From: a virus
Direction: 5' to 3' (one strand)
IMG/VR virus record: IMGVR_UViG_3300021602_000014
Coordinates: 1 to 34,742 of that record
DNA: 34,742 bases
The notes under the pieces: model-generated
The model's database searches: none
Told to the model about the DNA's origin: nothing
Seen by the model: the letters and a program-made list of their open reading frames with translations, nothing else
Made by a program: the position numbers and the translations under genes
Shown here: positions 4,871-34,742 of the stretch, in pieces
Layout of the letters: every line of letters begins with the position of its first letter
Position numbering within the stretch: the first letter of the stretch is position 1

Positions 4871-6238
4871 ATGGCTGATTGGACACCACCTAAAGAACAA
4901 GCAGACGCTCAAGAGTGGACACCACCAGCGGAACATGCTGACACTGCTCCATATCAACCCGGTGTGTTTATGTCTGCCTTACGTAATTTACAACATTCCG
5001 CAACAATGGGGTATGATACTAAGTTTAATGCTGCTTTACAGGCTGCTACTAAGACTGGTGCAGGTAAGGGTGATACTTTTGGTCAGAGATATGATGCAGC
5101 CTTAGCAAATGAAAATGCTATTCAAGCAGCATCTGAGAAGAACCCGTGGGTTGCTGTTCCTTCACAAGTTGCTGGAAGTTTTGTTCCGGGTGTTCCTATT
5201 GCTAAAGCAACTAATGCTATTGCAAAAGGTGCTGTGGGCTTAATTCCTGCGATTGGCAGAAATATGGTAGGCGGCGCTGTTCAGGGTGGTATACAAGGAT
5301 CTAGTAGTGCTTCATCTCCATCTGAAATTATTCCAAAGACATTAGAAGGTGCAACATCTGGTGCTGAAATGGGTGCTGCTATTCCAGCAGTTTTGGGTGG
5401 GGCTGGTAAAGTATTAAGCGCAACAACCAAGATACCAGTAATTGGGCCTAAGATTTCGGCATTTGGTGAAAACTATAAAAATTTAGACCCTAAAGCTACC
5501 GGCAATATTGGACCGATGACTGTTGGTTTTGGTGCTGGTGCTGCTGGTGGTAATATTGCAGGTATTGCTGGTGTGCCTGGCGGAATTAGGCCGGAGGATT
5601 GGTCTAGTGATCCAGTATCAGCATTTGCTGATAGTATGAAATGGGGACTTACTGGTGCTGCTGGTGGCAAAGTAATTAAAACACTAGGGCGTGCAGGTGG
5701 TGCTCTCGAACAAACATTTAAAGGCACACCTCCTCCAGCAGAAGTAACTGTTCCTCCAGCACCTACTCCTACTCCTCCAGTTCCTCCAGCAGGCGGCGGT
5801 ACTACTAATAATTCATATAGTATTAAAGTAAATGTAAAAGGCCCTAAGCCGGTTGCAGGTACAGAGAATGCTCCAGTCGAAGTACAACGACAAGAAGCGA
5901 TGAAGCAGACAGCAACACCAGAAGGTAGGGCACAGTCAAATACAGAGGCACCTGCTGGATTAAATATGACTGCTTTTGAAGATATTGCTCCGATTGAAAC
6001 ACAATCTGCACCGTCTACTAGTTCTCAGGCATATTTTAAAGACTTAGCAAGTAGAAGTATACCTGACAATACACCACAGATTTCTAATGCTGCCACTAAA
6101 GACTTCCAAGCAGTTAAAGATGCAATTGGTACAGGTAAAATTGATTTTAAGAAGTATGATCAATTAGCGCAGCAACACGGCTATGCTAACTTTGATGAAT
6201 GGAATACCGAGAATACAGCGATGATTAATAAGAAGTAA
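4871..6238 (+). CDS. ejection-type internal virion protein (455 aa)
   Basis: The N-terminus has tandem DWTPPKEQAD and EWTPPAEHAD motifs, a pattern common at the start of podovirus internal/ejection proteins. It is followed by LRNLQHSATMGYDTKFNAAL and RYDAALANENAIQAASEKNP, which match the usual order in such proteins (an aromatic-rich segment, then an A-x-E-x-NP segment). Residues 85-270 are Gly/Ala-rich with several moderately hydrophobic helices (AIAKGAVGLIPAIG, MGAAIPAVLGGAGK) that could insert into membranes. A Pro-rich linker (PPAPTPTPPVPPAGGG) separates a C-terminal soluble part. Last gene of the structural run; the lysis promoter begins 16 nt after its stop. Confidence 0.8.
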   Translation: MADWTPPKEQADAQEWTPPAEHADTAPYQPGVFMSALRNLQHSATMGYDTKFNAALQAATKTGAGKGDTFGQRYDAALANENAIQAASEKNPWVAVPSQVAGSFVPGVPIAKATNAIAKGAVGLIPAIGRNMVGGAVQGGIQGSSSASSPSEIIPKTLEGATSGAEMGAAIPAVLGGAGKVLSATTKIPVIGPKISAFGENYKNLDPKATGNIGPMTVGFGAGAAGGNIAGIAGVPGGIRPEDWSSDPVSAFADSMKWGLTGAAGGKVIKTLGRAGGALEQTFKGTPPPAEVTVPPAPTPTPPVPPAGGGTTNNSYSIKVNVKGPKPVAGTENAPVEVQRQEAMKQTATPEGRAQSNTEAPAGLNMTAFEDIAPIETQSAPSTSSQAYFKDLASRSIPDNTPQISNAATKDFQAVKDAIGTGKIDFKKYDQLAQQHGYANFDEWNTENTAMINKK

Positions 6239-6468: not shown

Positions 6469-6590
6469 AATACCTATTAGTATGCCTACTACTATCCGGC
6501 TGTGGAACAGTCCAAGATAGAGTAGTAGCATTAGCAATTGATCTTGCTATTCAACACGCGCCTGATTCGTCCGAGACAAAGCGTCCATAA
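6465..6590 (+). CDS. short lipoprotein, o-spanin-like candidate (41 aa)
   Basis: The peptide starts MKYLLVCLLLSGCG: a charged residue, a short hydrophobic core and a lipobox L-S-G-C, with lipidated Cys13 expected. The predicted mature part is only about 29 residues (CGTVQDRVVALAIDLAIQ and a polar end). Size and lipobox resemble Rz1-type outer-membrane spanin subunits, although it is not proline-rich. The start overlaps the upstream membrane-protein stop by 4 nt. Its last 44 nt overlap the 3' end of a minus-strand gene (6547-6933), an antisense convergent arrangement. Alternative: an entry-exclusion lipoprotein. Confidence 0.7.
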   Translation: MKYLLVCLLLSGCGTVQDRVVALAIDLAIQHAPDSSETKRP

Positions 6591-6933
6591 ATAATTCATT
6601 CGAATAATCTTCGAGTGTTTCTTTACATCTTACACCAATATAGAAGGTCCAAGTGCCTTCCGCATCTACTATTAGTGCTACGCTTCTAGGAATATATGCG
6701 AACCGATCATTTTTAGTTTGTTCGAGATAGATACTGAACATGTGAGATACAGTAAGATGCTGCGAGAACAAGCCCACTTTGAATGTTTTAATCGATAATG
6801 CATTATACATTAGAGTTGGATCACTTAAATTAGTCATAGTTACATCAATCAAGTCAATTAATTCTTTTTGCTTACTAGTAACTTGCTGTTGTGGATATTT
6901 GGTAAGGCTCTTAAGCCAGTTAAATAATTTCAT
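6547..6933 (-). CDS. unknown protein, last gene of the minus-strand operon (128 aa)
   Basis: ATG at 6933 overlaps the upstream gene's TGA by 4 nt and has an AAGGAC ribosome site inside that gene. The sequence begins MKLFNWLKSLTKYPQQQ (amphipathic, basic) and continues with a mixed alpha/beta pattern (FKVGLFSQHLTVSHMFSIYL, YIPRSVALIVDAEGTWTFYI). No transmembrane span or catalytic motif is evident. The 3' end overlaps the lipoprotein gene on the other strand. I do not recognise it. Confidence 0.72.
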   Translation of the reverse strand: MKLFNWLKSLTKYPQQQVTSKQKELIDLIDVTMTNLSDPTLMYNALSIKTFKVGLFSQHLTVSHMFSIYLEQTKNDRFAYIPRSVALIVDAEGTWTFYIGVRCKETLEDYSNELFMDALSRTNQARVE

Positions 6934-7235
6934 TCTTTAAGTCCTTGTAGTTTACGAACTATCATATATGTTTCCCATGCATCTTTTAATGCAGGGTGTT
7001 CTTCTAATTCTAAATTAGATGGTCCAGATTTCCTAATTTGATTTAATGAGTTCTTTATCTGTTCATTTAATGATAATAACTCCTTTTCACTTAACCCAGT
7101 TATATCAGGAGGTGATCGATAGGTAGTGTTAAGATTACCATTGGTAATATTATAGGGATTTGTTACTCCCATTTGACCCATTATTGATGTGTTTGCTATA
7201 TTTTGTGCAGGATGATGATTGAAATTACTCGACAT
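6930..7235 (-). CDS. unknown small protein of minus-strand operon (101 aa)
   Basis: I take the ATG at 7235 rather than the in-frame TTG at 7250, because GGAG stands about 9 nt before the ATG. The start overlaps the upstream gene by 11 nt. The first 50 residues are Asn/Pro-rich and probably disordered (NFNHHPAQNIANTS, NPYNITNGNLNTTYR). The second half is helical (LSEKELLSLNEQIKNSLNQI, ALKDAWETYMIVRKLQGLKE). Not recognised. Its position between a zinc-finger-like protein and an unknown protein suggests an accessory or early host-takeover function. Confidence 0.7.
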   Translation of the reverse strand: MSSNFNHHPAQNIANTSIMGQMGVTNPYNITNGNLNTTYRSPPDITGLSEKELLSLNEQIKNSLNQIRKSGPSNLELEEHPALKDAWETYMIVRKLQGLKE

Positions 7236-7731
7236 TTTTCTTCTCCGCAATTCTTCTTCTACGAGCAGCCGCCTGATTATCGAGTACTGCTCGTCTTTCT
7301 TCAGGTGTTAATGCCCAATAAGCGTCTTTATTACGTTTACGTTGATTAGCAAGCATCTGTTCCTTCTTCTCGGCTGGCATTTCTACATACCATCTATGAT
7401 GGCTTTCTTTACGTGCGTCAGTTAGTTCGTATTTCCTGATATATCCCTTGATTTTGTCGGGATTTTCCTTCTGCCATTTCATCACACGCTTTTTATGTGC
7501 TTCATATGCTTCTTCTTTACTTGCATACTTGCCTATATCTTTAGAAACACCTTCGAATACATGTTCAAATGGGCCTTTAGGTAGTTCTTTCTCACATGCC
7601 AAGCAATGCCCGTCCCTAATTCGTCTGATGTTTCTACCGTTAGATCCCACATGCTGGTGTGGTTTGCATACTTTCCCGTATCGAAGTAATTCGATAGGTG
7701 TATTTTCAAAACTCGTTTTTGATTTCTTCAT
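7225..7731 (-). CDS. basic protein with CxxH...CxxC zinc-finger-like motif (168 aa)
   Basis: ATG at 7731 is preceded by GGAG (spacing about 6 nt) and overlaps the upstream gene by 26 nt. The N-terminal part has VCKPHQHVG followed by RRIRDGHCLACEKE, giving C-x2-H and C-x2-C pairs able to bind zinc. This kind of finger is seen next to HNH/endonuclease VII-type phage proteins. The rest is Lys/Arg-rich and helical (KWQKENPDKIKGYIRKY, EERRAVLDNQAAARRRRIAE), a composition common in the non-catalytic part of those proteins. I see no complete HNH catalytic triad, so nuclease activity is not claimed; nucleic-acid binding is likely. Confidence 0.75.
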   Translation of the reverse strand: MKKSKTSFENTPIELLRYGKVCKPHQHVGSNGRNIRRIRDGHCLACEKELPKGPFEHVFEGVSKDIGKYASKEEAYEAHKKRVMKWQKENPDKIKGYIRKYELTDARKESHHRWYVEMPAEKKEQMLANQRKRNKDAYWALTPEERRAVLDNQAAARRRRIAEKKNVE

Positions 7732-8017
7732 TTTCTACTCCATTAATTAGTTTATAACCGTCTTCTTCTTTTGTGCATCTCTGATAAAGTTGTGTCCAAG
7801 ATAATCCTGTCCCCTTCATTGCAGCAGAAATGCTTCTAAACTCACCCCAAGGTGTACTTACTGCAAATGGTACACCACATTTTCTTCTATTCTTTATATT
7901 AAAAGATGACTTTCTGAATATACCTTGCTTAATTGAGTATGTAATAATCCCATTATCATGTATGACTTTGTCCACATACGGAATTATTAACTCTTCAAAT
8001 TTTACTTGTTCCATCAT
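7706..8017 (-). CDS. NUMOD/HTH-like DNA-binding protein, first gene of minus-strand operon (103 aa)
   Basis: The C-terminal half has the pattern TPWGEFRSISAAMKGTGLSW followed by TQLYQRC and GYKLI, which matches the NUMOD-type motif (T-P-x-G-x-F-x-S-x-x-x-A-A, then a turn, a T-x-x-x-R helix and G-Y/W). That motif is a DNA-recognition module of homing endonucleases and also occurs free-standing in phages. The N-terminus is mixed, with a basic patch (KSSFNIKNRRKCG). Two ATGs in tandem (8017, 8014) could start it; no strong SD is visible. As the promoter-proximal gene of the divergent unit it could be a regulator or half of a split homing-type system. Confidence 0.72.
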   Translation of the reverse strand: MMEQVKFEELIIPYVDKVIHDNGIITYSIKQGIFRKSSFNIKNRRKCGVPFAVSTPWGEFRSISAAMKGTGLSWTQLYQRCTKEEDGYKLINGVENEEIKNEF

Positions 8018-8443: not shown

Positions 8444-9367
8444 ATGACTAATAGCGAATTAAGACTTCTTACAGAATGGCGCTTCTGCAAGATGGATCTA
8501 GGTGTTAAGTCGCCACGCTACGCTAACTGGCAAAAGACGCCGTTTTCTTTGCAATCTGTACCCCAATCAGGCAACGTGGGTATACTTACTGGTTCTCAGA
8601 GTAACGGCGTAATTGCTATCGATTTTGATGGCGAATTTGCCTGGAGATTTTGGGATGAGAATATTAAAATTCCGTTCGATATAATTAATACAGTTAGTTG
8701 GACTTCTGGTAGGGATGCTAGATGTCAAATGGCTTTCAAGATACCACAGGAAATGTGGGAATTTGTTAAAACATTCAAAATTACAAACGACGAAAAGACA
8801 GAAGGTATTGAGTTTCGTTGGGAAGGATGCCAGTCTGTATTGCCTCCAAGTATACATCCAGATACACAAAAACCGTATGAGTGGGTACAATCACCATCAA
8901 GTGCTCCTGTACAAGAAATACCACTCGACTTACTCGAATGGATGATTAATTATAGTCCACTAAGTAAAGTAGAAGAAGACTTAACAATACAAGAAGTACA
9001 AATAGAAGACTTAACAATTGATAAGTTTAACGAAACTGAAAAAGTATTGAAACGCATACATGACTATGAACCTCAACTAAGCTATGATGATTGGATTAGA
9101 ATTACATGGTCAACAGTTTCACATGTTGGATCAGCAGCAGGTATTGAATTAATGAAAGAGTTCTGGCCCGAGAAAGAGAAGAATGAGTATGCTAGATTAA
9201 TGCGTGGCTGGAGTATTAGTAAGTCTCCTAAGTTTGGTAGTTTAATACATAGAGCAGCAAGTCATAATATTACAAAATATGACGGCATATCGGGTTATAT
9301 GACAAGAAGACAAACAATTAATGATACTTTTTACCCAAATAAACAACAAATAAAGAAATTATTTTAA
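8444..9367 (+). CDS. bifunctional primase/polymerase (PriPol-like) with PriCT-2-type C-terminus (307 aa)
   Basis: Predicted to synthesise primers, and possibly to extend them, at the phage origin. The AEP core is visible: NVGILTGSQSNGVIAIDFDG carries motif I with D60-x-D62; WTSGRDARCQMAFKIP (residues 86-101) matches motif II of phage PriPols, although the usual His is Cys here; GIEFRWEGCQSVLPPS followed by IHP (121-139) is motif III with the PPS turn. Residues about 200-280 (RIHDYEPQLSYDDWIRITW, MRGWSISKSPKFGSLIHRA) match the PriCT-2 module. SD AAGGA, 11 nt before ATG. The helicase-like gene follows 7 nt later. The protein is shorter than plasmid RepB-type fusions and has no fused helicase. 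Confidence 0.85.
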   Translation: MTNSELRLLTEWRFCKMDLGVKSPRYANWQKTPFSLQSVPQSGNVGILTGSQSNGVIAIDFDGEFAWRFWDENIKIPFDIINTVSWTSGRDARCQMAFKIPQEMWEFVKTFKITNDEKTEGIEFRWEGCQSVLPPSIHPDTQKPYEWVQSPSSAPVQEIPLDLLEWMINYSPLSKVEEDLTIQEVQIEDLTIDKFNETEKVLKRIHDYEPQLSYDDWIRITWSTVSHVGSAAGIELMKEFWPEKEKNEYARLMRGWSISKSPKFGSLIHRAASHNITKYDGISGYMTRRQTINDTFYPNKQQIKKLF

Positions 9368-9374
9368 GGAAAAC

Positions 9375-10793
9375 ATGACAAAATTTACAAAGTTACCAAA
9401 GATATTATTAGATACGATGTCTGCAATGAAGATTATTAATAATGTGCCAGAAGAAATGGCAATACAAGCAGTGTTAGGAGTAGTTAATTTTGCAACACAC
9501 GCTCATTATAATATTGATCCAGTCTTTTTTGGCGGCAATATTATACCAATGAGCGAATATTTTATAGCACTTGCTCCAACCGCTGGTGCAAAAAGTACAG
9601 TATATAAGATGCTAATGAAAGGTATATCTAAGTTTGAGGAAGAAGAATATATTAGGAAAATAAGTGATGATGAAACATACGATTTGATGTATGCAGTCTG
9701 GAAAAAGAAATATGCTGAAGATAAACTTAAACTTACACCAATTAATTTGATAGATAAGAATTTTATGAGTTCTTGGAATAAAAATCATAAGGCACCAGAG
9801 AAGACAAAAGGCGCAAATTACAGAGTTAGTAAGGCTACTGTAAATGGATTAATTAATGTATTGAATACACAACCATATGCTGGGTTGTTTAGCAGTGAGG
9901 CAGGTGAATTCTTTAATGGTCATGCTATGCAAAAAGGTAAGACTGAAAGTTTAGCATTAGAAATGCTTACTACATTAACTAACTTATGGGACGGACACCC
10001 ACTCGAACGTAATACAGGTGTTGATAATATTAAAACATACGATAGACGTTTTAATATGTTGTTTATGTTACAAGCAGAAATGGCTAAGGATTGGTTATCG
10101 AATTCATTATATAGCGATCAAGGATTTGTACATCGTTTATTAATCACACATTGTAAAGAGTGGGATATGCCTCCTCTAGATTTAACAAGAATACCTGTAA
10201 TTGAAGATGCAGAAAGAAAACTAAATCCATTTCACGACAGAATTTATAAGTTATTAAAGAGAAATATTAGAACTAAAGCAGGTACAACTTTACAATTAGA
10301 GCCGGAATTATTGTTGATAGATAGAGATGCATTAGAATTAATGGCTGCTTTTTCTAATGTAATACAGTCACAAAGATTATCAAAATATACTGATTGGAAC
10401 GGATTTGCTGCAAGAGCGTATGAACATACACTTAGGTTGGCTGCTACATTATCTGTATTTGATGGTAAGGAAAAAATTGATATCGATAATGCTGAGGCTG
10501 CATTAGAATTGATGGAGTTTTATTTAGATCAAAGATTAAGTTTAGAGTTAGGTGGTCATAGTAAAAATTCTAATCAGATTATAGTTGCTAATAAAGTTTA
10601 TAGTTGGATTAAGAAGAAAGGTGGTAGTATTGCTCATTCTAAACTTACTCATGATGGACCTAGATGTTATTATGATTTAACAGTTGGCGAGAAAGAAGGA
10701 ATTATACACGAAATGATTAGTAGAGAATTGATTAAAATGGAAGAGGTAGATACCGGTGGTAAAGTCAAAGAAACTCGGTATGTGGTACTCTAA
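9375..10793 (+). CDS. DUF3987-type primase-associated helicase-like ATPase (472 aa)
   Basis: The family accompanies PriPol primases on phages and plasmids and is presumed to unwind DNA at the origin. The P-loop region reads IALAPTAGAKSTVYKM (residues 64-79): K73-S74-T75 are intact but G-x-x-x-x-G-K-S is altered to A-P-T-A-G-A-K-S. The Walker B-like acid is in AGLFSSEAGEFFNG (E175), and NLWDGHPLERNTG follows, as is usual for the family. The C-terminal 80 residues look like a winged helix (VANKVYSWIKKKGGSIAHSK). SD AAGGA; the start lies 7 nt after the primase stop. The iteron array begins at the very end of this gene. Confidence 0.82.
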   Translation: MTKFTKLPKILLDTMSAMKIINNVPEEMAIQAVLGVVNFATHAHYNIDPVFFGGNIIPMSEYFIALAPTAGAKSTVYKMLMKGISKFEEEEYIRKISDDETYDLMYAVWKKKYAEDKLKLTPINLIDKNFMSSWNKNHKAPEKTKGANYRVSKATVNGLINVLNTQPYAGLFSSEAGEFFNGHAMQKGKTESLALEMLTTLTNLWDGHPLERNTGVDNIKTYDRRFNMLFMLQAEMAKDWLSNSLYSDQGFVHRLLITHCKEWDMPPLDLTRIPVIEDAERKLNPFHDRIYKLLKRNIRTKAGTTLQLEPELLLIDRDALELMAAFSNVIQSQRLSKYTDWNGFAARAYEHTLRLAATLSVFDGKEKIDIDNAEAALELMEFYLDQRLSLELGGHSKNSNQIIVANKVYSWIKKKGGSIAHSKLTHDGPRCYYDLTVGEKEGIIHEMISRELIKMEEVDTGGKVKETRYVVL

Positions 10794-10832
10794 GACCAGT
10801 AGACCAGCATGAATTGTAAAAACAAGACCAGC
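10794..10832 (+). repeat. outlying iterons (GACCAGY) left of the main array
   Basis: GACCAGT at 10794-10800 (touching the stop codon of the helicase gene), GACCAGC at 10802-10808 and GACCAGC at 10826-10832, all in the same orientation as the left half of the palindromic array. The third copy is part of the hairpin at 10822-10862. Confidence 0.6.
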
Positions 10833-10862
10833 AAACGTTTTTTAATAGTTTGCTTGTCTTGT
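10822..10862. other. 15-bp imperfect hairpin containing an iteron
   Basis: ACAAGACCAGCAAAC (10822-10836) pairs with GTTTGCTTGTCTTGT (10848-10862) with one mismatch around an 11-nt loop GTTTTTTAATA. No T tract follows on the plus strand, so it is a poor terminator. It could be a priming hairpin or single-strand initiation structure for the adjacent origin, or a modified half-site pair for the iteron-binding protein. Confidence 0.5.
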
Positions 10863-10876
10863 AGGTACCTAGGACA

Positions 10877-11014
10877 AAGACCAGCAAGACCAGCTAAGAC
10901 CAGCGGTACATATATATATATGCGAAGTTTAAGTATATAATATATATATATTTGTTTGTTTTTATACATTTTTATATATGTACTACGCTGGTCTTTGCTG
11001 GTCTTGCTGGTCTT
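10877..11014. other. candidate replication origin: palindromic iteron array around an AT-rich core
   Basis: Left arm 10877-10916 has GACCAGC at 10879, 10888 and 10898. Right arm 10973-11014 has the reverse complement GCTGGTC at 10987, 10997 and 11006. Start-to-start spacings mirror each other (9,10 and 10,9). Both arms end towards the centre in GTACATATATA. The arms match over about 40 bp with one mismatch and a 2-nt gap. The centre (10917-10972) is nearly all A/T with TATATA runs, as expected for a DNA-unwinding element. It lies directly after the primase and helicase genes. Alternatives: packaging (pac) site next to the small terminase gene, or operator. Confidence 0.65.
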
Positions 11015-11083: not shown

Positions 11084-11186
11084 ATATCTTGCTCTCCTTA
11101 GAGGTGAAAATCCTCGTTGTAAAAGATGTCTTCTTTTTCTTAAAATATGTTTACCCCTATCGACTAAAATTGGTAGGGGTATTTTT
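11084..11186 (+). ncRNA. second structured leader with terminator, upstream of terminase operon
   Basis: ATATCTT (11084-11090) can pair with AAGATGT (11123-11129, one G-U), enclosing GAGG-TGAAAAT-CCTC (11101-11115). A U-rich stretch follows (11131-11141) and then a strong terminator. The order 'hairpin with GAG...CTC, GTTGTAAAA, AGATG, CCCCTAT terminator' resembles the leader at 8331-8423. The similarity is short and may reflect design rather than ancestry. Confidence 0.4.
11152..11186 (+). terminator. rho-independent terminator ahead of terminase genes
   Basis: TACCCCTATCGA (11152-11163) pairs with TTGGTAGGGGTA (11170-11181), 12 positions with two G-U pairs. The loop is CTAAAA and TTTTT follows directly. 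It would end transcription coming from the primase/helicase unit about 85 nt before the small terminase start. Confidence 0.75.
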
Positions 11187-11271: not shown

Positions 11272-11718
11272 ATGCATAAAGAGATAGAACAGTCCTATCG
11301 GGACCTTGTTAAACGTAATCTAGAAGTAATTGCGTTAGAGTTAAAAAATCATCGAAGTTTACTGTTAGAAGCATCAGCCGTATTCGATATGGCGAAAGCC
11401 GGCCTATCACATGTATCTATCTGCCGATTATACAAAATGGCAGAAGACACAATCACACAAGATCCTACCTTATTGTATGAATTTAATCGTGGTAGAGCCC
11501 AGGTAGGAACTAAAGTCCGCACCGCCATTATAGATAATGCGTTAGATAAAGATAATCTAACTGCACAAATCTATCTAGACAAAATATATAACAAAGAAGA
11601 TAATGTTCAACAGATAGATGTTACAGTCACATCGAAACCCTTAGAGACTATCAATACTGAAGATCTACTTAATATCACATTTACTGACGACAGCGATGGC
11701 CACGATACAAGCAACTAA
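11272..11718 (+). CDS. terS: terminase small subunit (148 aa)
   Basis: Recognises the phage packaging site and recruits the large terminase. After a coiled N-terminus (RDLVKRNLEVIALELKNHRS), a helix-turn-helix-like part is visible: VFDMAKAGLSHVSICRLYKM followed by AEDTITQDPTLLYEF. It continues with NRGRAQVGTKVRTAIIDNAL and a segment that is typical of phage small terminases (NLTAQIYLDKIYNKED). The acidic C-terminal tail probably contacts the large subunit. SD AAAAGGAC. The 3' end overlaps terL by 23 nt, a usual arrangement. Identity rests on motif plus position. Confidence 0.8.
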   Translation: MHKEIEQSYRDLVKRNLEVIALELKNHRSLLLEASAVFDMAKAGLSHVSICRLYKMAEDTITQDPTLLYEFNRGRAQVGTKVRTAIIDNALDKDNLTAQIYLDKIYNKEDNVQQIDVTVTSKPLETINTEDLLNITFTDDSDGHDTSN

Positions 11719-18436: not shown

Positions 18437-19951
18437 ATGGCGTCACCAGTAACGGTCAGAGGGGTAACTATTTTATGGCCTACTACGGGCGATACAGGAT
18501 ATAGTAACAACGCCCTTCAATTACAACAACTTCTAGCAAGCGCAGTTCTACCTATTAATGGGTTATATAATACAACAACTGGTCTTGTAGGTAACTTAGC
18601 ATTAGATGATTTTGGCAACCTAACAGTAAATGGTGCACAAATTGTACCTGGCCCGGGATCAAGCGGTTATAGTGGATTCTCTGGGAAGAGCGGTTATAGT
18701 GGCTTTAGTGGTTTAGGTCTATCTGGATTCTCTGGCAGAAGTGGTTATAGTGGCTTTTCTGGCAGAAGTGGTTATAGCGGTACAAATGGTTCGGTAGGTG
18801 TTAGTGGATGGTCTGGTACTTCTGGTATGATAGGAACATCTGGTTGGTCTGGTATATCTGGAGCAAGTACAAGTGGATGGTCTGGTACAAGCGGAATATC
18901 AGGTAAGAGTGGATGGTCTGGTACAAGCGGCGTAAGTGGTTGGTCTGGTACATCAGGTAAGAGTGGATGGTCTGGTACAATCGGTGTAAGTGGATACTCT
19001 GGTATCGCTGGCGCAAGTACAAGTGGATGGTCTGGTACAAGCGGCGTGAGTGGATGGTCTGGTACATCAGGCAAGAGCGGATATAGTGGTATTACTGGTT
19101 CTAATGGTACAAGTGGATATTCCGGATCTATCGGAGCGACGGGTACAAGTGGATATTCCGGATCTATCGGAGCGACAGGTACAAGTGGATACTCTGGCGC
19201 CCAAGGATCATTATCACCGTGGGTCGTAATTACTTCTAACACCTTAGCAGTCAATCAACATCAATACATAGCAAATACAAATGGTGGAACTTTTACAGTT
19301 ACTCTACCAGCAACCCCAGTATTAGGGAATATCGTTGCTATATCAGATGGTGGTGCATTCGCAGCAAATAATTTAATAGTAGATGGAAATGGACATACAT
19401 TCGATGGTATTGCAGGTAATCTAATTATAGATATCAGCAATGTATTAGTTTATTTTACATATGATGGTACAACATGGAGAGTAGTAGCAACTGCTGGTCC
19501 ATCTGGTTTAAGTGGATATAGTGGTGTATCTGGTCATTCTGGAATAGGATTATCGGGTACAAGTGGATATAGTGGTATATCAGGCACAAGTGGTGCAAGC
19601 ACAAGTGGATATAGTGGCGTAAGTGGCACTATAGGTACAAGTGGATATAGTGGTGTATCAGGTGCAAGTGGCACTATAGGTACAAGTGGATATAGTGGTG
19701 TATCAGGGACAAGTGGTTTTAGCGGTATTAGTGGTGCAAGTACAAGCGGTTACAGTGGTACGGTAGGTGCAACAGGAACTAGTGGATATAGTGGTGCTAC
19801 TGGCTCTGCTGGATCTGCTGGAACAAGTGGCTATAGCGGTATAGGTACTTCGGGTTATTCAGGCGCACAAGGTATATCTGGCTTCTCGGGAGCGGGCGGT
19901 GGCAGCGGATCTGGCGGTTTAGAAACAATATTTCTTTTAATGGGGGCCTAA
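18437..19951 (+). CDS. collagen-like (Gly-X-Ser) fibre protein with internal globular domain (504 aa)
   Basis: Residues 1-75 form a globular head that begins MASPVTVRGVTILWPTTGD and includes LALDDFGNLTVNGAQI, a fibre-type attachment sequence. Two long Gly-X-Y tracts follow (nt about 18661-19200 and 19500-19920) with Ser at most Y positions and Tyr, Trp, Thr, Phe, Ile or Val at X (SGYSG, SGWSG, SGTSG). Between them is a beta-rich domain of about 100 residues (WVVITSNTLAVNQHQYIANT, GNIVAISDGG, VYFTYDGTTWRVVATAG). The end is GGLETIFLLMGA. Nearly no Pro. Likely a trimeric fibre on capsid or tail that extends towards the host surface. Confidence 0.82.
   Translation: MASPVTVRGVTILWPTTGDTGYSNNALQLQQLLASAVLPINGLYNTTTGLVGNLALDDFGNLTVNGAQIVPGPGSSGYSGFSGKSGYSGFSGLGLSGFSGRSGYSGFSGRSGYSGTNGSVGVSGWSGTSGMIGTSGWSGISGASTSGWSGTSGISGKSGWSGTSGVSGWSGTSGKSGWSGTIGVSGYSGIAGASTSGWSGTSGVSGWSGTSGKSGYSGITGSNGTSGYSGSIGATGTSGYSGSIGATGTSGYSGAQGSLSPWVVITSNTLAVNQHQYIANTNGGTFTVTLPATPVLGNIVAISDGGAFAANNLIVDGNGHTFDGIAGNLIIDISNVLVYFTYDGTTWRVVATAGPSGLSGYSGVSGHSGIGLSGTSGYSGISGTSGASTSGYSGVSGTIGTSGYSGVSGASGTIGTSGYSGVSGTSGFSGISGASTSGYSGTVGATGTSGYSGATGSAGSAGTSGYSGIGTSGYSGAQGISGFSGAGGGSGSGGLETIFLLMGA
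18661..19200 (+). repeat. Gly-X-Ser coding repeat tract 1
   Basis: About 180 residues of continuous triplets, with DNA-level repeats of the type GGTACAAGTGGATATAGTGG and GGATGGTCTGGTACAAGC. Copies differ at third positions, so the array is old or under selection for the peptide; it could still recombine. Confidence 0.8.
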
Positions 19952-19952
19952 T

Positions 19953-20282
19953 ATGGCAACAACATACAAGGTATTAGGTCAAATAGTACCATCAGCAACA
20001 ACCTTAACAACTTTATATACTGTTCCTAGTGCAACATCAACAGTATGTTCGTCGTTAGTTATATGTAACGAAGGAACAACAACAGAAACATTTAGAATAG
20101 CAATTAGGCCTGCAGGTGCAGCAGTCGATCCTAAACACTATATTACATACGATTCTTCAGTAACACAGAACAATTCGGTATTCCTTACATTAGGATTTAC
20201 ATTAGCAACAACCGATGTGGTATCGGTATATACAAGCGGTGCATCAATAGGCTTTTCACTATTTGGATCGGAGATAGCATAA
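19953..20282 (+). CDS. small beta-sandwich virion protein of a type common in marine phages (109 aa)
   Basis: The start (TTYKVLGQIVPSATTLTTLY) and middle (VCSSLVICNEGTTTETFRIA) followed by IRPAG match a familiar small phage protein found next to fibre genes; the end (DVVSVYTSGASIGFSLFG) completes the beta pattern. Likely a decoration, adaptor or fibre-associated protein. SD GGGGG within the upstream gene; its stop overlaps the next start as TAATG. Confidence 0.75.
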   Translation: MATTYKVLGQIVPSATTLTTLYTVPSATSTVCSSLVICNEGTTTETFRIAIRPAGAAVDPKHYITYDSSVTQNNSVFLTLGFTLATTDVVSVYTSGASIGFSLFGSEIA

Positions 20283-22639
20283 TGAGTTTTAGAAGTGCAA
20301 ACAGTAATAGTGTACCATCTAATACCTTATATTCCCAGGTAAAAATAACACCATGGATCAGAAATAAGAACTGGCTAACACTACCAACCGTCACTAGTTC
20401 AGATAAAACATTTGTTGGTTTACATGCAGTTTGGCCTGATTCGAATTTCGTTGCACTTAACGCTGCAGGAAATTATTATGTAGATTGGGGAGATGGCACG
20501 AATAGCACTGTTAGTTCCGGTGTTCAAGCTAATCATCAATACACATATACCGATGCTGCATTAGATGGGACAAATGCACCTGTGACTTTTCAAGATACTG
20601 GTGATACTGTTACTAGAACATCACACGGGTATGTAGATGGTGATATTGTATCTTTTTATAATATTGTTAGTACTAGCGGCATTACCGAAGCACAATCTTA
20701 TTATGTAATAAACAAGTCTACAAATACATTTCAGATATCCTTAACTGCTGGCGGATCCGCTATATCATTGACTACCAACGGCAGTGGTACTCTATTACCA
20801 TATAAACAAGTAATTGTTGTGGTCACTCCACAATCCGGACAAACATTTAGTACAATTAATCTCGGTGTAAAGAATAGTTATTCTAATCTAAATTCATATT
20901 ATTGTTCCGGCTTTATGGACATTATTATTGCAGGTACTGCATTATCTACCATAACTGTATCTGGTGGTACTGTTAAGTTCAATATGCTTGAACAAGCACA
21001 AATTGTTAGTACAACAGTAGCATCTTATGCTAGTTTATTCATCTATTGCAGCAAATTGCAGTCGGTACCAATGATAGGTAATACATCTAGTGGAAACACA
21101 AACATGTCAAACATGTTTAGAGATTGTAAAGAATTACAGAAAGTGCCATATTTCAATACATCTTTTGTCACAAATATGTCAGCAATGTTTACCGGGGACT
21201 ATAGTTTAATTGAAGTACCATTATATAATACACACCTAAATCAGAATTTTAATGCTATGTTTAGAGAATGCTATAGACTCGTAAATGTACCATTATATGA
21301 TATGTATTCGGCTATAGATTTATCTTATATGTTTGTGAGTTGCTCGTCGATGATAGAGTGCCCGCCATTTAAGATACCAAATACGGTAACGGCTGCGATG
21401 ACGATGTTTCAGAATTGTTCTTCTCTTAAAACATTACCGATGCTTAATTTCTCTAAAGTAGTATCGTTGCAGTACATGTTTCAGACGTGTAGTGCATTAA
21501 TATCTATTCCGGCATTTGACTGTTCGAGTTGTACTGATTTTTTATCTACATTTAATAGTTGCTGGTCTCTAAAAACAATACCACATCTTGATACATCTAA
21601 AGGTACAATCTTTACACTCATGTTTTCTAATTGTTATAGTTTAGAGTCAATTCCGGATTTAGATTATCATTTGGCTACTGCATGTAATCAAATGTTTGAT
21701 CAATGCCGATCATTAAAATATATTCCAACATTAAATCTTCCGGTATGTACTAATATAACAACTATGTTCAGAGGCTGTTACGTATTAGAGCAAGCAAGTA
21801 TAAGCGCGTTAGGCACAATTACTTCGTGTAGTGCAATCTTCCAAGATTGTTATTGTTTAAAGAAGGTAGAATTATTTTCTACCTCATCAGCGACAATTGC
21901 CACCAATATGTTTGCTAACTGTTATTCATTAAACAATATACCACAATTTGATATGTCCAGTAGTACAGCATTTACTAGTACATTTGGATCAACTTGCTAT
22001 AGTTTAACACAAGGGGTATTCACTTCACCTAAATATACAATATCCTATGATGGATGTAATTTGTCACCTACAGCACTAACTAACATCATTAATTCGGTAG
22101 GAAAACCAGCAACGGCCGCTACACTTACTTTAACTAATAACTGGGGTAATCCTACAGCAGTTAGTTTGTCAGCAGCAGCAGTTGATGGAAGTACAACTAT
22201 GTTAATGGCCAGCACAACAGGTTTAACGGTGGGTATGGAATTTTTAGGTGTAGGTTCAGCACTAACTATTGCTGCTGCCGTTACTTTACAAGATACAGGT
22301 GATACTGTTACAAGAACAGCACACGGCTTATCTAATGGTGACGAGGTTTCTTTCGCAACACTTGTCACGACTACCGGAATTAGTATTAATATAATCTATT
22401 TTGTTATTAATGCAACAACAAATACATTCCGGTTGGCATTAACAGCAGGCGGATCTGCAATAGTACTAACAACAGACGGCTCAGGAACTATCCGTTACCG
22501 TCAGATAATTTCTACTATAAATACTAATGTTAGTGTGATATTAAACAGACCAGCAACAAACACAAATACGTCGTCAAAAACATTTCACGCATTAGAGTAT
22601 GGTACTGCATTACTTCGTGGTTGGACAGTTACAGGATAA
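20282..22639 (+). CDS. tail adhesin with DUF285/BspA-like leucine-rich repeats (785 aa)
   Basis: About 13 repeats of roughly 24 residues occupy residues 250-590, each with a core of type MF-x-x-C-x-x-L-x-x-I/V-P (NMFRDCKELQKVP, AMFRECYRLVNVP, LMFSNCYSLESIP, NMFANCYSLNNIP). This is the DUF285/BspA surface-protein repeat, a solenoid best known from bacterial and protist adhesins. Most repeats keep one Cys at the same place, which should make a ladder inside the solenoid. Flanking the LRRs are two related segments (QDTGDTVTRTSHGYVDGD and QDTGDTVTRTAHGLSNGD, both continuing to GGSAI-x-LTT-x-GSGT), a phage domain often labelled FCCH-like. The N-terminus has NYYVDWGDGTNSTVSSG, a PKD-like strand. 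A receptor-binding role is inferred. Confidence 0.82.
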   Translation: MSFRSANSNSVPSNTLYSQVKITPWIRNKNWLTLPTVTSSDKTFVGLHAVWPDSNFVALNAAGNYYVDWGDGTNSTVSSGVQANHQYTYTDAALDGTNAPVTFQDTGDTVTRTSHGYVDGDIVSFYNIVSTSGITEAQSYYVINKSTNTFQISLTAGGSAISLTTNGSGTLLPYKQVIVVVTPQSGQTFSTINLGVKNSYSNLNSYYCSGFMDIIIAGTALSTITVSGGTVKFNMLEQAQIVSTTVASYASLFIYCSKLQSVPMIGNTSSGNTNMSNMFRDCKELQKVPYFNTSFVTNMSAMFTGDYSLIEVPLYNTHLNQNFNAMFRECYRLVNVPLYDMYSAIDLSYMFVSCSSMIECPPFKIPNTVTAAMTMFQNCSSLKTLPMLNFSKVVSLQYMFQTCSALISIPAFDCSSCTDFLSTFNSCWSLKTIPHLDTSKGTIFTLMFSNCYSLESIPDLDYHLATACNQMFDQCRSLKYIPTLNLPVCTNITTMFRGCYVLEQASISALGTITSCSAIFQDCYCLKKVELFSTSSATIATNMFANCYSLNNIPQFDMSSSTAFTSTFGSTCYSLTQGVFTSPKYTISYDGCNLSPTALTNIINSVGKPATAATLTLTNNWGNPTAVSLSAAAVDGSTTMLMASTTGLTVGMEFLGVGSALTIAAAVTLQDTGDTVTRTAHGLSNGDEVSFATLVTTTGISINIIYFVINATTNTFRLALTAGGSAIVLTTDGSGTIRYRQIISTINTNVSVILNRPATNTNTSSKTFHALEYGTALLRGWTVTG

Positions 22640-22829: not shown

Positions 22830-24314
22830 ATGACATTATTAAGTAATATACTAGGCGGGGGTTATATATCGGGATATTCGGGTGTTAGTGGATTCAGCGG
22901 AGCGATAGGCCCTTCAGGCGGCGTAAGCGGTTATAGCGGAGCAAGTGGTTGGTCCGGAATAAGTGGGACAAGCGGTTATAGCGGAGCAAGTGGTATTTCT
23001 GGATTCAGTGGTATTGGCTCGAGTGGTTATAGCGGTACAAATGGTGTGATAGGCGTAAACGGCCTATCTGGCTATAGCGGTCTAAACGGAGCAAGCGGTA
23101 CAAGTGGCATCAGCGGATATAGCGGCATCAGTGGCATAAACGGAACGAGTGGTACAAGTGGTATCAGCGGATATAGCGGTATATCTGGACATAGTGGATA
23201 TAGTGGTATTAGCGGTTTAAACGGTACTGCTACTGCAAGTGGTTATAGTGGTGCAAATGGTGCAGCCGGTACAAGTGGTTACAGTGGTAAGAGTGGCTAT
23301 AGCGGTGTTAGTGGTGCTACAGGCACAGGAACTAGTGGTTATAGCGGTGTTAGTGGTGCTACAGGTACAGGAACTAGTGGTTATAGCGGTAGAAGTGGTG
23401 CTAGTACAAGTGGTTATAGCGGCACAGAGGGAACTAGTGGATATAGCGGTAGAAGTGGATATTCAGGCATAGTAGGATCGGCTGGTACAGCAGGTACGAG
23501 CGGCTATAGTGGCGTGAATGGTACAGTAGGTGTTAGCGGCTATAGTGGTTTTAGTGGTAAGAGTGGCTATAGTGGTGTTAGCGGTGCTAGTACAAGTGGT
23601 TACAGTGGTACGATAGGTGCAACAGGAACTAGCGGATATAGTGGTATTGTTGGTGCTACGGGCACAGGAACTAGTGGTTACAGCGGTATTAGTGGTGCTA
23701 GTACAAGTGGTTACAGCGGTATTAGTGGTTGGCCTGGTACAAGCGGCGTAAGTGGTTGGTCTGGTACAAGCGGTATTAGTGGGTATAGCGGTGCAGTAGG
23801 ACCTATCGGAAGTAGCGGTTATAGCGGGCTGAGTGGCAATAGTACAAGTGGTTATAGCGGATTCGGCGGATTTTCTGGTATAAGTGGTACAAGCGGCTAT
23901 AGTGGTATTAGTGGTAGAAGCGGCTATTCAGGTATAGTCGGGACAAGCGGCTATTCCGGAGCGATAGGGCCATCAGGCGGCGTAAGTGGATATAGTGGTA
24001 TTAGGGGTAATCCTGATGTACCACAAAATGCACAAACCACATCCTATACATTAGTGTTAGGAGATGATGGAAAACATATTTCTATTACTACAGGCGGTGT
24101 TACTATCCCTGCAAGCACATTCTCTATTGGTAATATTATTTCTATCTATAACAACTCAGCAAGTAATCAAATAATTACTTCTGCAGGTGGAGTTACTACA
24201 TATTTGGCAGGTACGGCTTTTTCAGGCGGTAGAACATTAGTACAACGAGGAATATGTAGCATATTATGCGTAGCAAGTAATACTTTTGTTATCTTTGGAG
24301 CAGGATTATCATAA
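22830..24314 (+). CDS. collagen-like (Gly-X-Ser) fibre protein with C-terminal beta domain (494 aa)
   Basis: After only about 13 residues (MTLLSNILGGGYI) the protein is Gly-X-Y to residue about 390, dominated by SGYSG, SGTSG, SGISG and GASTSGYSG units, with little proline. The C-terminal 100 residues are a separate domain: QTTSYTLVLGDDGKHISITT, GVTIPASTFSIGNIISIYNN, ending VIFGAGLS, which is a common phage fibre tip of beta structure. SD AGAGGAAT; the stop overlaps the next start (TAATG). Second of the two large repeat fibres; probably homotrimeric and surface exposed. Confidence 0.82.
   Translation: MTLLSNILGGGYISGYSGVSGFSGAIGPSGGVSGYSGASGWSGISGTSGYSGASGISGFSGIGSSGYSGTNGVIGVNGLSGYSGLNGASGTSGISGYSGISGINGTSGTSGISGYSGISGHSGYSGISGLNGTATASGYSGANGAAGTSGYSGKSGYSGVSGATGTGTSGYSGVSGATGTGTSGYSGRSGASTSGYSGTEGTSGYSGRSGYSGIVGSAGTAGTSGYSGVNGTVGVSGYSGFSGKSGYSGVSGASTSGYSGTIGATGTSGYSGIVGATGTGTSGYSGISGASTSGYSGISGWPGTSGVSGWSGTSGISGYSGAVGPIGSSGYSGLSGNSTSGYSGFGGFSGISGTSGYSGISGRSGYSGIVGTSGYSGAIGPSGGVSGYSGIRGNPDVPQNAQTTSYTLVLGDDGKHISITTGGVTIPASTFSIGNIISIYNNSASNQIITSAGGVTTYLAGTAFSGGRTLVQRGICSILCVASNTFVIFGAGLS
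22868..24008 (+). repeat. Gly-X-Ser coding repeat tract 2
   Basis: About 380 residues of triplets. Some DNA units are repeated exactly or nearly so, for instance GTGCTACAGGCACAGGAACT / GTGCTACAGGTACAGGAACT near 23311 and 23356, showing recent local duplication. Confidence 0.8.
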
Positions 24315-32657: not shown

Positions 32658-33076
32658 TGGCATTACCGGTATTTAGGCGCTTTTCTATAGCAGATTTTCC
32701 TACTGCACCTAGTTGGTTAGCGGGGTTGTTCAATCCTCTTAATATATTTTGTGAAACTACTGTTCAAAATCTTAATAAGAATCTAACAATTGGTGCAAAT
32801 GTGCAAGGAATGAAGTATTCTACTACATTTACTACACCAACTGGATATGCAACGGGTGATTTTACGCCTATTGTTTTTGCATATTCGAGTAATGGCCAGC
32901 CAGATTGTTGCATAATTGGCAATATTTCTCGTACAGACTCACAACCTATGCTTTCTTCAGTTAGTATTACTTCTTGGTCATCTAATATAAATGTAATTCC
33001 ACTACAAATAAGAGTAGATTATATCGCTGGGTTAGATGCAGGTGTTAAATACAACATAACTTTATTGGTGGTATAA
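32657..33076 (+). CDS. small tail-associated beta protein (139 aa)
   Basis: Start overlaps the nozzle stop (TAATG) and its own stop overlaps the next start (TAATG). Residues PVFRRFSIADFPTAPSWLAG and NPLNIFCETTVQNLNKNLTI are of a kind that recurs directly after nozzle genes in aquatic podoviruses. The rest is beta-rich (YATGDFTPIVFAYSSNG, IPLQIRVDYIAGL). It may be a tail-needle or fibre-docking protein; the exact role is unknown. Confidence 0.75.
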   Translation: MALPVFRRFSIADFPTAPSWLAGLFNPLNIFCETTVQNLNKNLTIGANVQGMKYSTTFTTPTGYATGDFTPIVFAYSSNGQPDCCIIGNISRTDSQPMLSSVSITSWSSNINVIPLQIRVDYIAGLDAGVKYNITLLVV

Positions 33077-34742
33077 TGGCGTACGTTCAAAATTGGAATC
33101 CATTAGATGATCAGACAGAAACAACTGGTCAACCTAATGGAATAAATCCTACTATTACACAAGGCAGTCAAGATGTCTCTACTGCTGCGAATGCTCAACC
33201 ATTACAGCAAACTGGCGATCCTAACGCTCAAAAACAGAGCAATGCACAATTTAGTAATTTACAGAAGTATCTAGCAGCCAATCAAACAGGAGCGCAAGGT
33301 CTTGGTAATCAAGTTGCAAGCGATATTACTTCTACTCAGCAAAAAGCACAAACTGGCATCAATGATGCTGTTACTGGATTTACTGGCGCAGTTAAGAGCG
33401 GTACAAATATATTTAATCCTGCTGCAGGTGGTCCAGATCCAGCAAATATAACTGTTCCTGACGGGTTATTTACAGGTACTAATCAAAATAAAGCAAATTA
33501 CTATAATGGCTTACTAAATCAGGGTTATACTGATGCACAAATTAGAAAAGTATTTAATAATGCGCCATTAAATGCTGATTGGCAAACTATAATTAGTATG
33601 GCTAATGCGTCAAATACTGGTGGAGTTGATCGAGTTGCACAAAGCCAAGCAGCATTAGATGCATTAAAAGGTAGTAAAACCAGTACATATACTGGTCCTA
33701 CAAGTTTTATGGCAAGTCAGCAAGGTGCTGATGCTACTAAGGCACTATTAGATGCACAAAATAAGGCTGCTTTAGCAAGCACAACAGGTGGCCAAGCACA
33801 ATTATTAACGGATTTAGCGCCAAACGGCCAATCTAGGGGTGCTACTAACTTAGATCAGTTTTTGATGCAGAATACTGCTGGTGCTAATAATGCAATTCAA
33901 AATGCTGCTGGATTAGTTAAACCAATGGGTGAAGCTTTAACTACTCAATCTAATACACTACAGGCTCAGGTAGACGCTGCTCAAAAGAATGTAACAGATA
34001 AAAATGCTGCATTACAAAAACTTATTGATGCTCAAACTACTAATGTTGCTGATGTTAGGCAAGCAAAAGTTTCGGCTGATCAACAAGCACTAATAGATAA
34101 GCAAGCAGCAGATAATAAGATTGCACAAGATACATATTTGGCTGCATTGCAGAAACAGACAGATGCACAGGCAGCGGCACAGACTGCTGCATTACAGGCT
34201 GCTGCTAAACAACAGGCTGATGCACTTGCTGCTCAACAAGCAGTGGCGGCTGGTACTGCAACTGCATATCAAAAAATGTTAGCCGATAATCAGGCTGCAT
34301 TAGATAGACAACAAGCGGCTATACTTGCTGCTAATAGAACTGCTGCTCAACAACAGGCCGATGCTTTGGCACAAGCCCAAGTTAATGCTGCACAACAAGC
34401 CGCACAACAGGCCGCACTAATGAAACAGTTAGCAGATATGATTGCTGCATCTAATGCTTCAACTGCTGCTGAAAAGGCTGCTGCTGCACAAAAAGCGGCT
34501 GATGCACTTGCTGCTGCACAGGCTGCTCAAAAGGCTGCTGCTGATGCGGCTGCTGCTAAAACTGCTGCTGATGCAAAGGCTGCTGCTGATGCAAAGGCTG
34601 CTGCTGATGCAAAGGCTGCTGCGGATGCGAAGGCTGCTGCTGATGCGAAGGCTGCTGCTGATGCGAAGGCTGCTGCTGATGCGTTATTAGCCGGAGGCGG
34701 CGGCAATACCGGCGGAACAGTTAATAACACTAATGTTAATAC
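33076..34742 (+). CDS. 5' part of 951-residue Ala-rich virion protein with TolA-like repeats; truncated by the window end
   Basis: ATG at 33076 overlaps the previous stop (TAATG) and the frame stays open for 555 codons plus two bases. Residues 1-200 are Gln/Asn/Gly-rich (MAYVQNWNPLDDQTETTGQP; NKANYYNGLLNQGYTDAQIR). From about residue 280 a long Ala/Gln-rich helix follows (LQAQVDAAQKNVTDKNAALQ) and ends in seven near-perfect AAADAK units, much like TolA domain II. Then AGGGGNTGGTVNNTNVN leads into the Gly run at the window start. The final AC plus the first T of the window complete an ACT codon in frame. Likely an internal or ejection protein with a rod-like region. Confidence 0.85.
   Translation, partial: MAYVQNWNPLDDQTETTGQPNGINPTITQGSQDVSTAANAQPLQQTGDPNAQKQSNAQFSNLQKYLAANQTGAQGLGNQVASDITSTQQKAQTGINDAVTGFTGAVKSGTNIFNPAAGGPDPANITVPDGLFTGTNQNKANYYNGLLNQGYTDAQIRKVFNNAPLNADWQTIISMANASNTGGVDRVAQSQAALDALKGSKTSTYTGPTSFMASQQGADATKALLDAQNKAALASTTGGQAQLLTDLAPNGQSRGATNLDQFLMQNTAGANNAIQNAAGLVKPMGEALTTQSNTLQAQVDAAQKNVTDKNAALQKLIDAQTTNVADVRQAKVSADQQALIDKQAADNKIAQDTYLAALQKQTDAQAAAQTAALQAAAKQQADALAAQQAVAAGTATAYQKMLADNQAALDRQQAAILAANRTAAQQQADALAQAQVNAAQQAAQQAALMKQLADMIAASNASTAAEKAAAAQKAADALAAAQAAQKAAADAAAAKTAADAKAAADAKAAADAKAAADAKAAADAKAAADAKAAADALLAGGGGNTGGTVNNTNVN

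Follow-up and report, generated by a model that had tools for sequence, protein, structure and literature searches.

A mirrored iteron array behind a DUF3987 helicase gene is a probable replication origin in an uncultured tailed-phage lineage

The window, i.e. the whole stretch of DNA analysed here (34,742 nucleotides), is an entire virus record. Terminase, portal and tail-type genes are present in it and no integrase was noticed. An open reading frame at 33076–34740 continues in frame into 2–1189, across the ends of the window; since the last and first open frames join in this way, the circular map of a complete genome is indicated. As the initial annotation had pointed out, an array of short repeats (iterons) lies directly behind a primase gene and a helicase gene: the helicase stop codon occupies positions 10791–10793 and the first outer iteron begins at 10794. 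The features of the locus are the following.

8444–9367, + strand: Prim-Pol (AEP) primase gene (PF09250, E=5e-16)
9375–10793, + strand: DUF3987 helicase gene, putative initiator (PF13148, E=5e-37; phrog_2373 DNA helicase)
10557–10793, + strand: C-terminal winged-helix domain of the helicase, residues about 395–472, predicted to bind the iterons (AlphaFold2 and Foldseek)
10794–10832, + strand: three outer iterons on the left side, GACCAGT at 10794 (one mismatch), GACCAGC at 10802 and GACCAGC at 10826
10822–10862, no strand assigned: hairpin with two iteron copies, the one at 10826 and a degenerate, inverted one at 10852 (DNA fold −12 kcal/mol, z −4.2)
10878–10904, + strand: left iteron triplet, AGACCAGC starting at 10878, 10887 and 10897 (start-to-start spacing 9,10)
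10905–10986, no strand assigned: A/T-rich core, candidate melting site (82 bp between the triplets, 17% GC)
10987–11013, − strand: right iteron triplet, AGACCAGC inverted, starting at 10987, 10997 and 11006 (spacing 10,9)
11152–11181, + strand: terminator-like hairpin with a T run, located behind the array and ahead of the probable small terminase gene
11272–11718: probable small terminase gene (named from its position and a resemblance seen by eye; no family match)
from 11696: large terminase gene, downstream of the array

Both the two mirrored triplets and the three extra iterons on the left, one of them in a hairpin, are thus present as initially described. Eight copies of AGACCAGC, five direct and three inverted, are found within 10801–11013, and the whole window contains ten, compared with 0.62 expected in 34.7 kb. 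A mirrored triplet of 7-mers was obtained in none of 100 dinucleotide shuffles of the window, and none of 200 Markov copies matched the score of the array. Chance is therefore excluded as its source, and the mirrored array is confirmed as real. A second, 6-mer match of equal score (TGCTGG, 5533–5791) was set aside, its core being 48% GC and lying within coding sequence. An Rfam search gave no match.

Looking at the core, GTACATATATA at 10906–10916 and its complement at 10973–10983 enclose 56 bp that are 86% A/T. The length and the A/T richness claimed for this stretch were thus correct, but not its near-pure A/T composition, because GCGAAGTT lies within it. The core is polar, with a left conserved box, ACATATA..GCGAAGTT, and a right one, TATATTTGTTTGTTTTTATA.

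Helicase-profile searches of viral contigs converged on ten relatives, and a final search added none. When these contigs were surveyed for a conserved array with a changing iteron, as had been proposed, all ten were found to carry one array each, made of direct iterons, an A/T-rich core and inverted iterons, and the iteron differed between lineages. It is GTTAGCA in L005, GTAGCA in L006 and L007, a GTAG-type pentamer in L008, L009 and L010, GTTGAC/AAAGTGAC in L011, and GTAGAC, in three plus three copies like the window, in L057, L058 and L059 (the last a near copy of L058). The arrays of L009 and L010 were read by eye, the 6-mer scan finding none there. Each lineage keeps to its own iteron, foreign ones being merely sporadic within an array. 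In nine of the ten relatives the array is directly 3' of the helicase gene. The exception is L005, whose array is on the opposite strand, inverted and upstream of the primase gene, and adjoins zinc-finger and tail genes that come after the array in L006; the array/zinc-finger/tail block thus appears, from the two sequences, to be inverted relative to the replication genes (compare L005, 7690–7960, with L006, 11380–12279). In L058 (2517–2533) and L011 (2410–2440), additional outer iterons, inverted, either overlap the 3' end of the helicase gene or lie shortly beyond it. At 2113–5086 of L008, next to the array, a small terminase-like gene lies between two DNA methyltransferase-like genes, one of which has an N-terminal part like ParB.

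The spacing between iterons is 7–11 bp in most arrays and 5 bp in L008 (1790–1901), L009 (2400–2510; left arm 3 bp) and L010 (11440–11560). The perfect mirror symmetry that the initial annotation had pointed out is peculiar to the window, left and right spacings being different in most relatives. Exact mirror spacing is therefore not a functional requirement; orientation and core are. A left box of the form ACATATA..(A/G)C(G/A)A(A/G)(A/G)TT, oriented alike, is common to the cores, and a right box like TATTTGTATGTTTTTATGT is found in those of the window, L008–L010, L011, L057 and L058. The similarity of the window core exceeded 300 of 300 shuffles with L009 and with L010 and 297 of 300 with L008, whereas pairwise similarity to the cores of L006, L007 and L011 was not significant in the same shuffle test; over the whole set, many pairs, not every pair, went beyond all 300 shuffles. 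The cores are thus partly kept although the helicases of the relatives are only 33–50% identical to that of the window.

Outside this set, tblastn searches of annotated phages gave no match to the DUF3987 protein of the window, of L010 or of L006, and two scans of bacterial and archaeal genome contigs gave no confirmed relative. The DNA pattern of the core was found in 47 stretches of viral contigs, with flanking iterons only at the known loci and in L045, a copy of L009. In the stretches scanned of phages AAS23 and P318, which encode distant DUF3987 proteins, there was no such array, meaning that the array is not a property of all DUF3987 phages. Neither was one found in the scanned stretches of a Silvanigrella phage, the closest cultured phage by terminase and portal (about 24% identity).

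We then considered which protein reads the iterons. The helicase matches DUF3987 with 128 bits, compared with a curated cut-off of 27. Foldseek matches of its core were almost all MCM helicases (best E 3.7e-3, with TM below 0.4 and a poor AlphaFold core model), and a profile search gave the same likeness weakly (E 0.11). The C-terminal domain was predicted better: its pLDDT is about 91 when modelled by itself and about 83 as part of the full model; its elements follow the order H-S-H-H-S-S, and its Foldseek matches were mostly winged-helix DNA-binding proteins. In all 45 pairs compared, this winged helix has diverged faster than the core. For L005 and L006, which have different iterons, core identity is 80% and winged-helix identity 53%; for L006 and L007, which have the same iteron, the values are 58% and 56%. 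A shared iteron would thus go with winged helices unusually similar for the divergence of the cores, an observation that is suggestive only, since it is a single comparison over 75 residues.

The primase behaves differently. Beside a constant helicase, at least four groups of primase are found among the relatives, with other families at the same place in L007, in L010 and in L009/L011/L057/L058; unrelated primase families replace one another next to a helicase–array pair that persists. The clearest case is that of L009 and L010, whose helicase cores are 90% identical and whose arrays are similar while their primases are unrelated, which means that the array goes with the helicase. An origin read not by the DUF3987 helicase but by the primase or some host protein could be argued from the L010 primase, which has a match (E=1e-5) to a PHROG called 'replication origin binding', and from the DNA-binding domains that some AEP proteins carry (PMC5862659). 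We regard this as unlikely: L009 and L010 exchange primases and retain similar arrays, and a change of iteron between lineages is unexpected for a conserved host protein.

Taken together, the comparisons indicate a real and conserved element that is very probably an origin. We propose that positions 10794–11013 are the replication origin of the phage and that the DUF3987 helicase is its initiator, which would bind the iterons through its C-terminal winged helix; from sequence and structure prediction, we put the probability of this reading at about 0.8. Two hexamers of SaPI Rep appear to occupy its origin (PMC7581432). By analogy, each of the two triplets, which face inward, would receive one helicase assembly, the A/T-rich core in the middle would melt, and two MCM-like hexamers would be loaded and begin unwinding; replication would then be bidirectional, with two forks, and the adjacent archaeo-eukaryotic-type primase would lay the first primers. 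A spacing of 7–11 bp would place the iterons roughly on one face of the DNA, L008–L010 (5 bp) being the exception. The outer iterons, one of them in the hairpin, may be accessory or autoregulatory. The combination of symmetrical outer arms with a polar core suggests that the two strands of the core are not handled alike. Of the original interpretation, an origin with loading on both sides and melting of the core thus remains the best-supported reading, while exact mirror spacing and skew lend it nothing. The expected GC-skew switch at the array is absent: there is no origin signature there, the detrended extremes fall at 3.1 and 18.6 kb, and neither GC skew nor third-position skew gave a usable signal across the window. 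Skew in this genome tracks the strand of the genes and repetitive coding sequence, and is therefore evidence neither for nor against an origin. Two long proteins made mostly of collagen-like repeats of the GTSGYSG type are encoded at 18437–19951 and 22830–24314, and these genes strongly influence the skew of the genome.

Other functions of the array were weighed against this reading. The array could be a pac site, at which the small terminase (11272–11718) binds the iterons and the packaging cut starts; in the window, L007, L009 and L010 the terminase genes come no more than about 2 kb after the array, and headful packaging fits the circular map. However, array and terminase are not closely linked throughout: the distance along the contig to the large terminase is about 14 kb in L005, about 18 kb in L006 and 4.7 kb in L057, and the array remains near the replication genes despite the distant terminase. 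A conserved A/T-rich core is also not expected of a pac site, and we consider this function highly improbable. A partition site (centromere) for a ParB-like protein appears scarcely credible, for while a gene read from its sequence as a ParB-domain methyltransferase-like one adjoins the L008 array, no ParB-like gene was noticed beside the array in the window or the other relatives, nor any partition operon in the window.

It is also very improbable that the element is not an origin but a regulatory operator of the replication or terminase genes, bound by the helicase winged helix or another regulator, or an RNA hairpin. Winged helices are common in repressors, a terminator-like site follows the array, and the long arms (42 nt, 86% complementary) could pair the whole array into a long stem (−41.6 kcal/mol folded as DNA). 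On the other hand, no promoter excess was found at the array, the L005 element is inverted and at the other side of the operon, and the unequal left and right spacings of most relatives show that an in-register stem is not what is kept; on account of these non-mirrored spacings the whole-array hairpin was rejected as the functional feature. Autoregulation could nevertheless exist alongside origin function.

The origin proposed here resembles known ones, the SaPI and SCCmec elements being compared from published descriptions, not sequences. The rep-ori of PICIs/SaPIs, like the window array, has an A/T-rich region with a set of short iterons on either side and lies directly behind an initiator-helicase gene (PMC6092414); this rep-ori replicates a plasmid in E. 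coli (PMC6092414). Its recognition is by the C-terminal domain of Rep (PMC6092414, PMC7581432), the role that we assign to the winged helix in the window. In contrast, the SaPI initiators described in PMC7581432 carry DUF927 or D5_N/Primase_Cterm-type helicases, not DUF3987, and PICIs are satellites whereas the window holds terminase, portal and tail genes and is the genome of a complete phage; the element would thus work like a PICI origin without being a PICI. SaPI Rep and SCCmec Cch2 each use the C-terminal domain to bind repeats that lie 3' of the gene encoding the protein (PMC7581432); in the case of Cch2 these are direct repeats just downstream, as proposed for the window helicase. The putative SCCmec origin has only three iterons, with no mirrored second arm described and no in vivo replication shown, and its helicase is of the D5 type (PMC7581432), unlike the window. 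As for DUF3987 itself, PrimQH and all3500, primase-helicases of mobile genetic elements, contain it as a predicted helicase fused with an AEP primase, and a C-terminal winged helix was suggested for origin recognition; the part of PMC5862659 on which we rely describes no origin sequence for them.

The crr of P4 is likewise directly 3' of its initiator gene (alpha). Its 120-bp repeat holds type 1 iterons, two direct (spacing 9) and two inverted, around a 35-bp A/T-rich core, a layout that is in the annotated record and that our 5-mer scan recovered as a positive control. Alpha ends in a domain of solved structure (1ka8), known as a winged-helix origin-binding domain. The crr differs from the window array in that its unit occurs twice, each arm holds fewer iterons and one more direct copy stands outside; it also acts together with ori1, a separate site about 4.7 kb distant. 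Moreover, alpha is one Toprim/D5_N/DUF5906 protein, whereas primase and DUF3987 helicase are separate in the window. The window helicase gave no match to the alpha-type domains (Toprim, D5_N, DUF5906, Pox_D5 winged helix), which alpha itself does match, and the two winged helices have no detectable profile similarity (hhalign probability 0.1%). The element would thus work like the PICI and P4 origins, but on the tested features it belongs to neither type. The plan is already published; the setting, the helicase family and the diversification of the iterons are new as far as our searches reach.

A mirrored-iteron origin had been called unique to phage satellites (PICIs); its presence in complete phages, beside a helicase of a different family, points either to a shared ancestry of the origin module or to convergence on one way of loading two helicases. 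One possibility, which we hold only tentatively, is that an uncultured tailed-phage lineage independently evolved an origin of the PICI/P4 type around an unrelated MCM-like DUF3987 initiator, winged helix and iterons having diverged in step, with part of the core retained and primases freely exchanged; the relatives would then be a natural series of re-targeted initiator–origin pairs. For DUF3987, by name still a domain of unknown function, the proposal offers a role that can be tested, that of an initiator which loads itself; how origin recognition changes can be studied on at least five iteron specificities, each with its matching winged helix.

Elsewhere in the genome, four small minus-strand genes with no known function lie at 6547–8017, the sole such block noticed. 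Finally, a 785-residue protein encoded at 20282–22639 contains MFxxCxSLxxIPxxDxS repeats resembling BspA-like leucine-rich repeats, and a similar protein is encoded in another contig, L001 (7693–10728).
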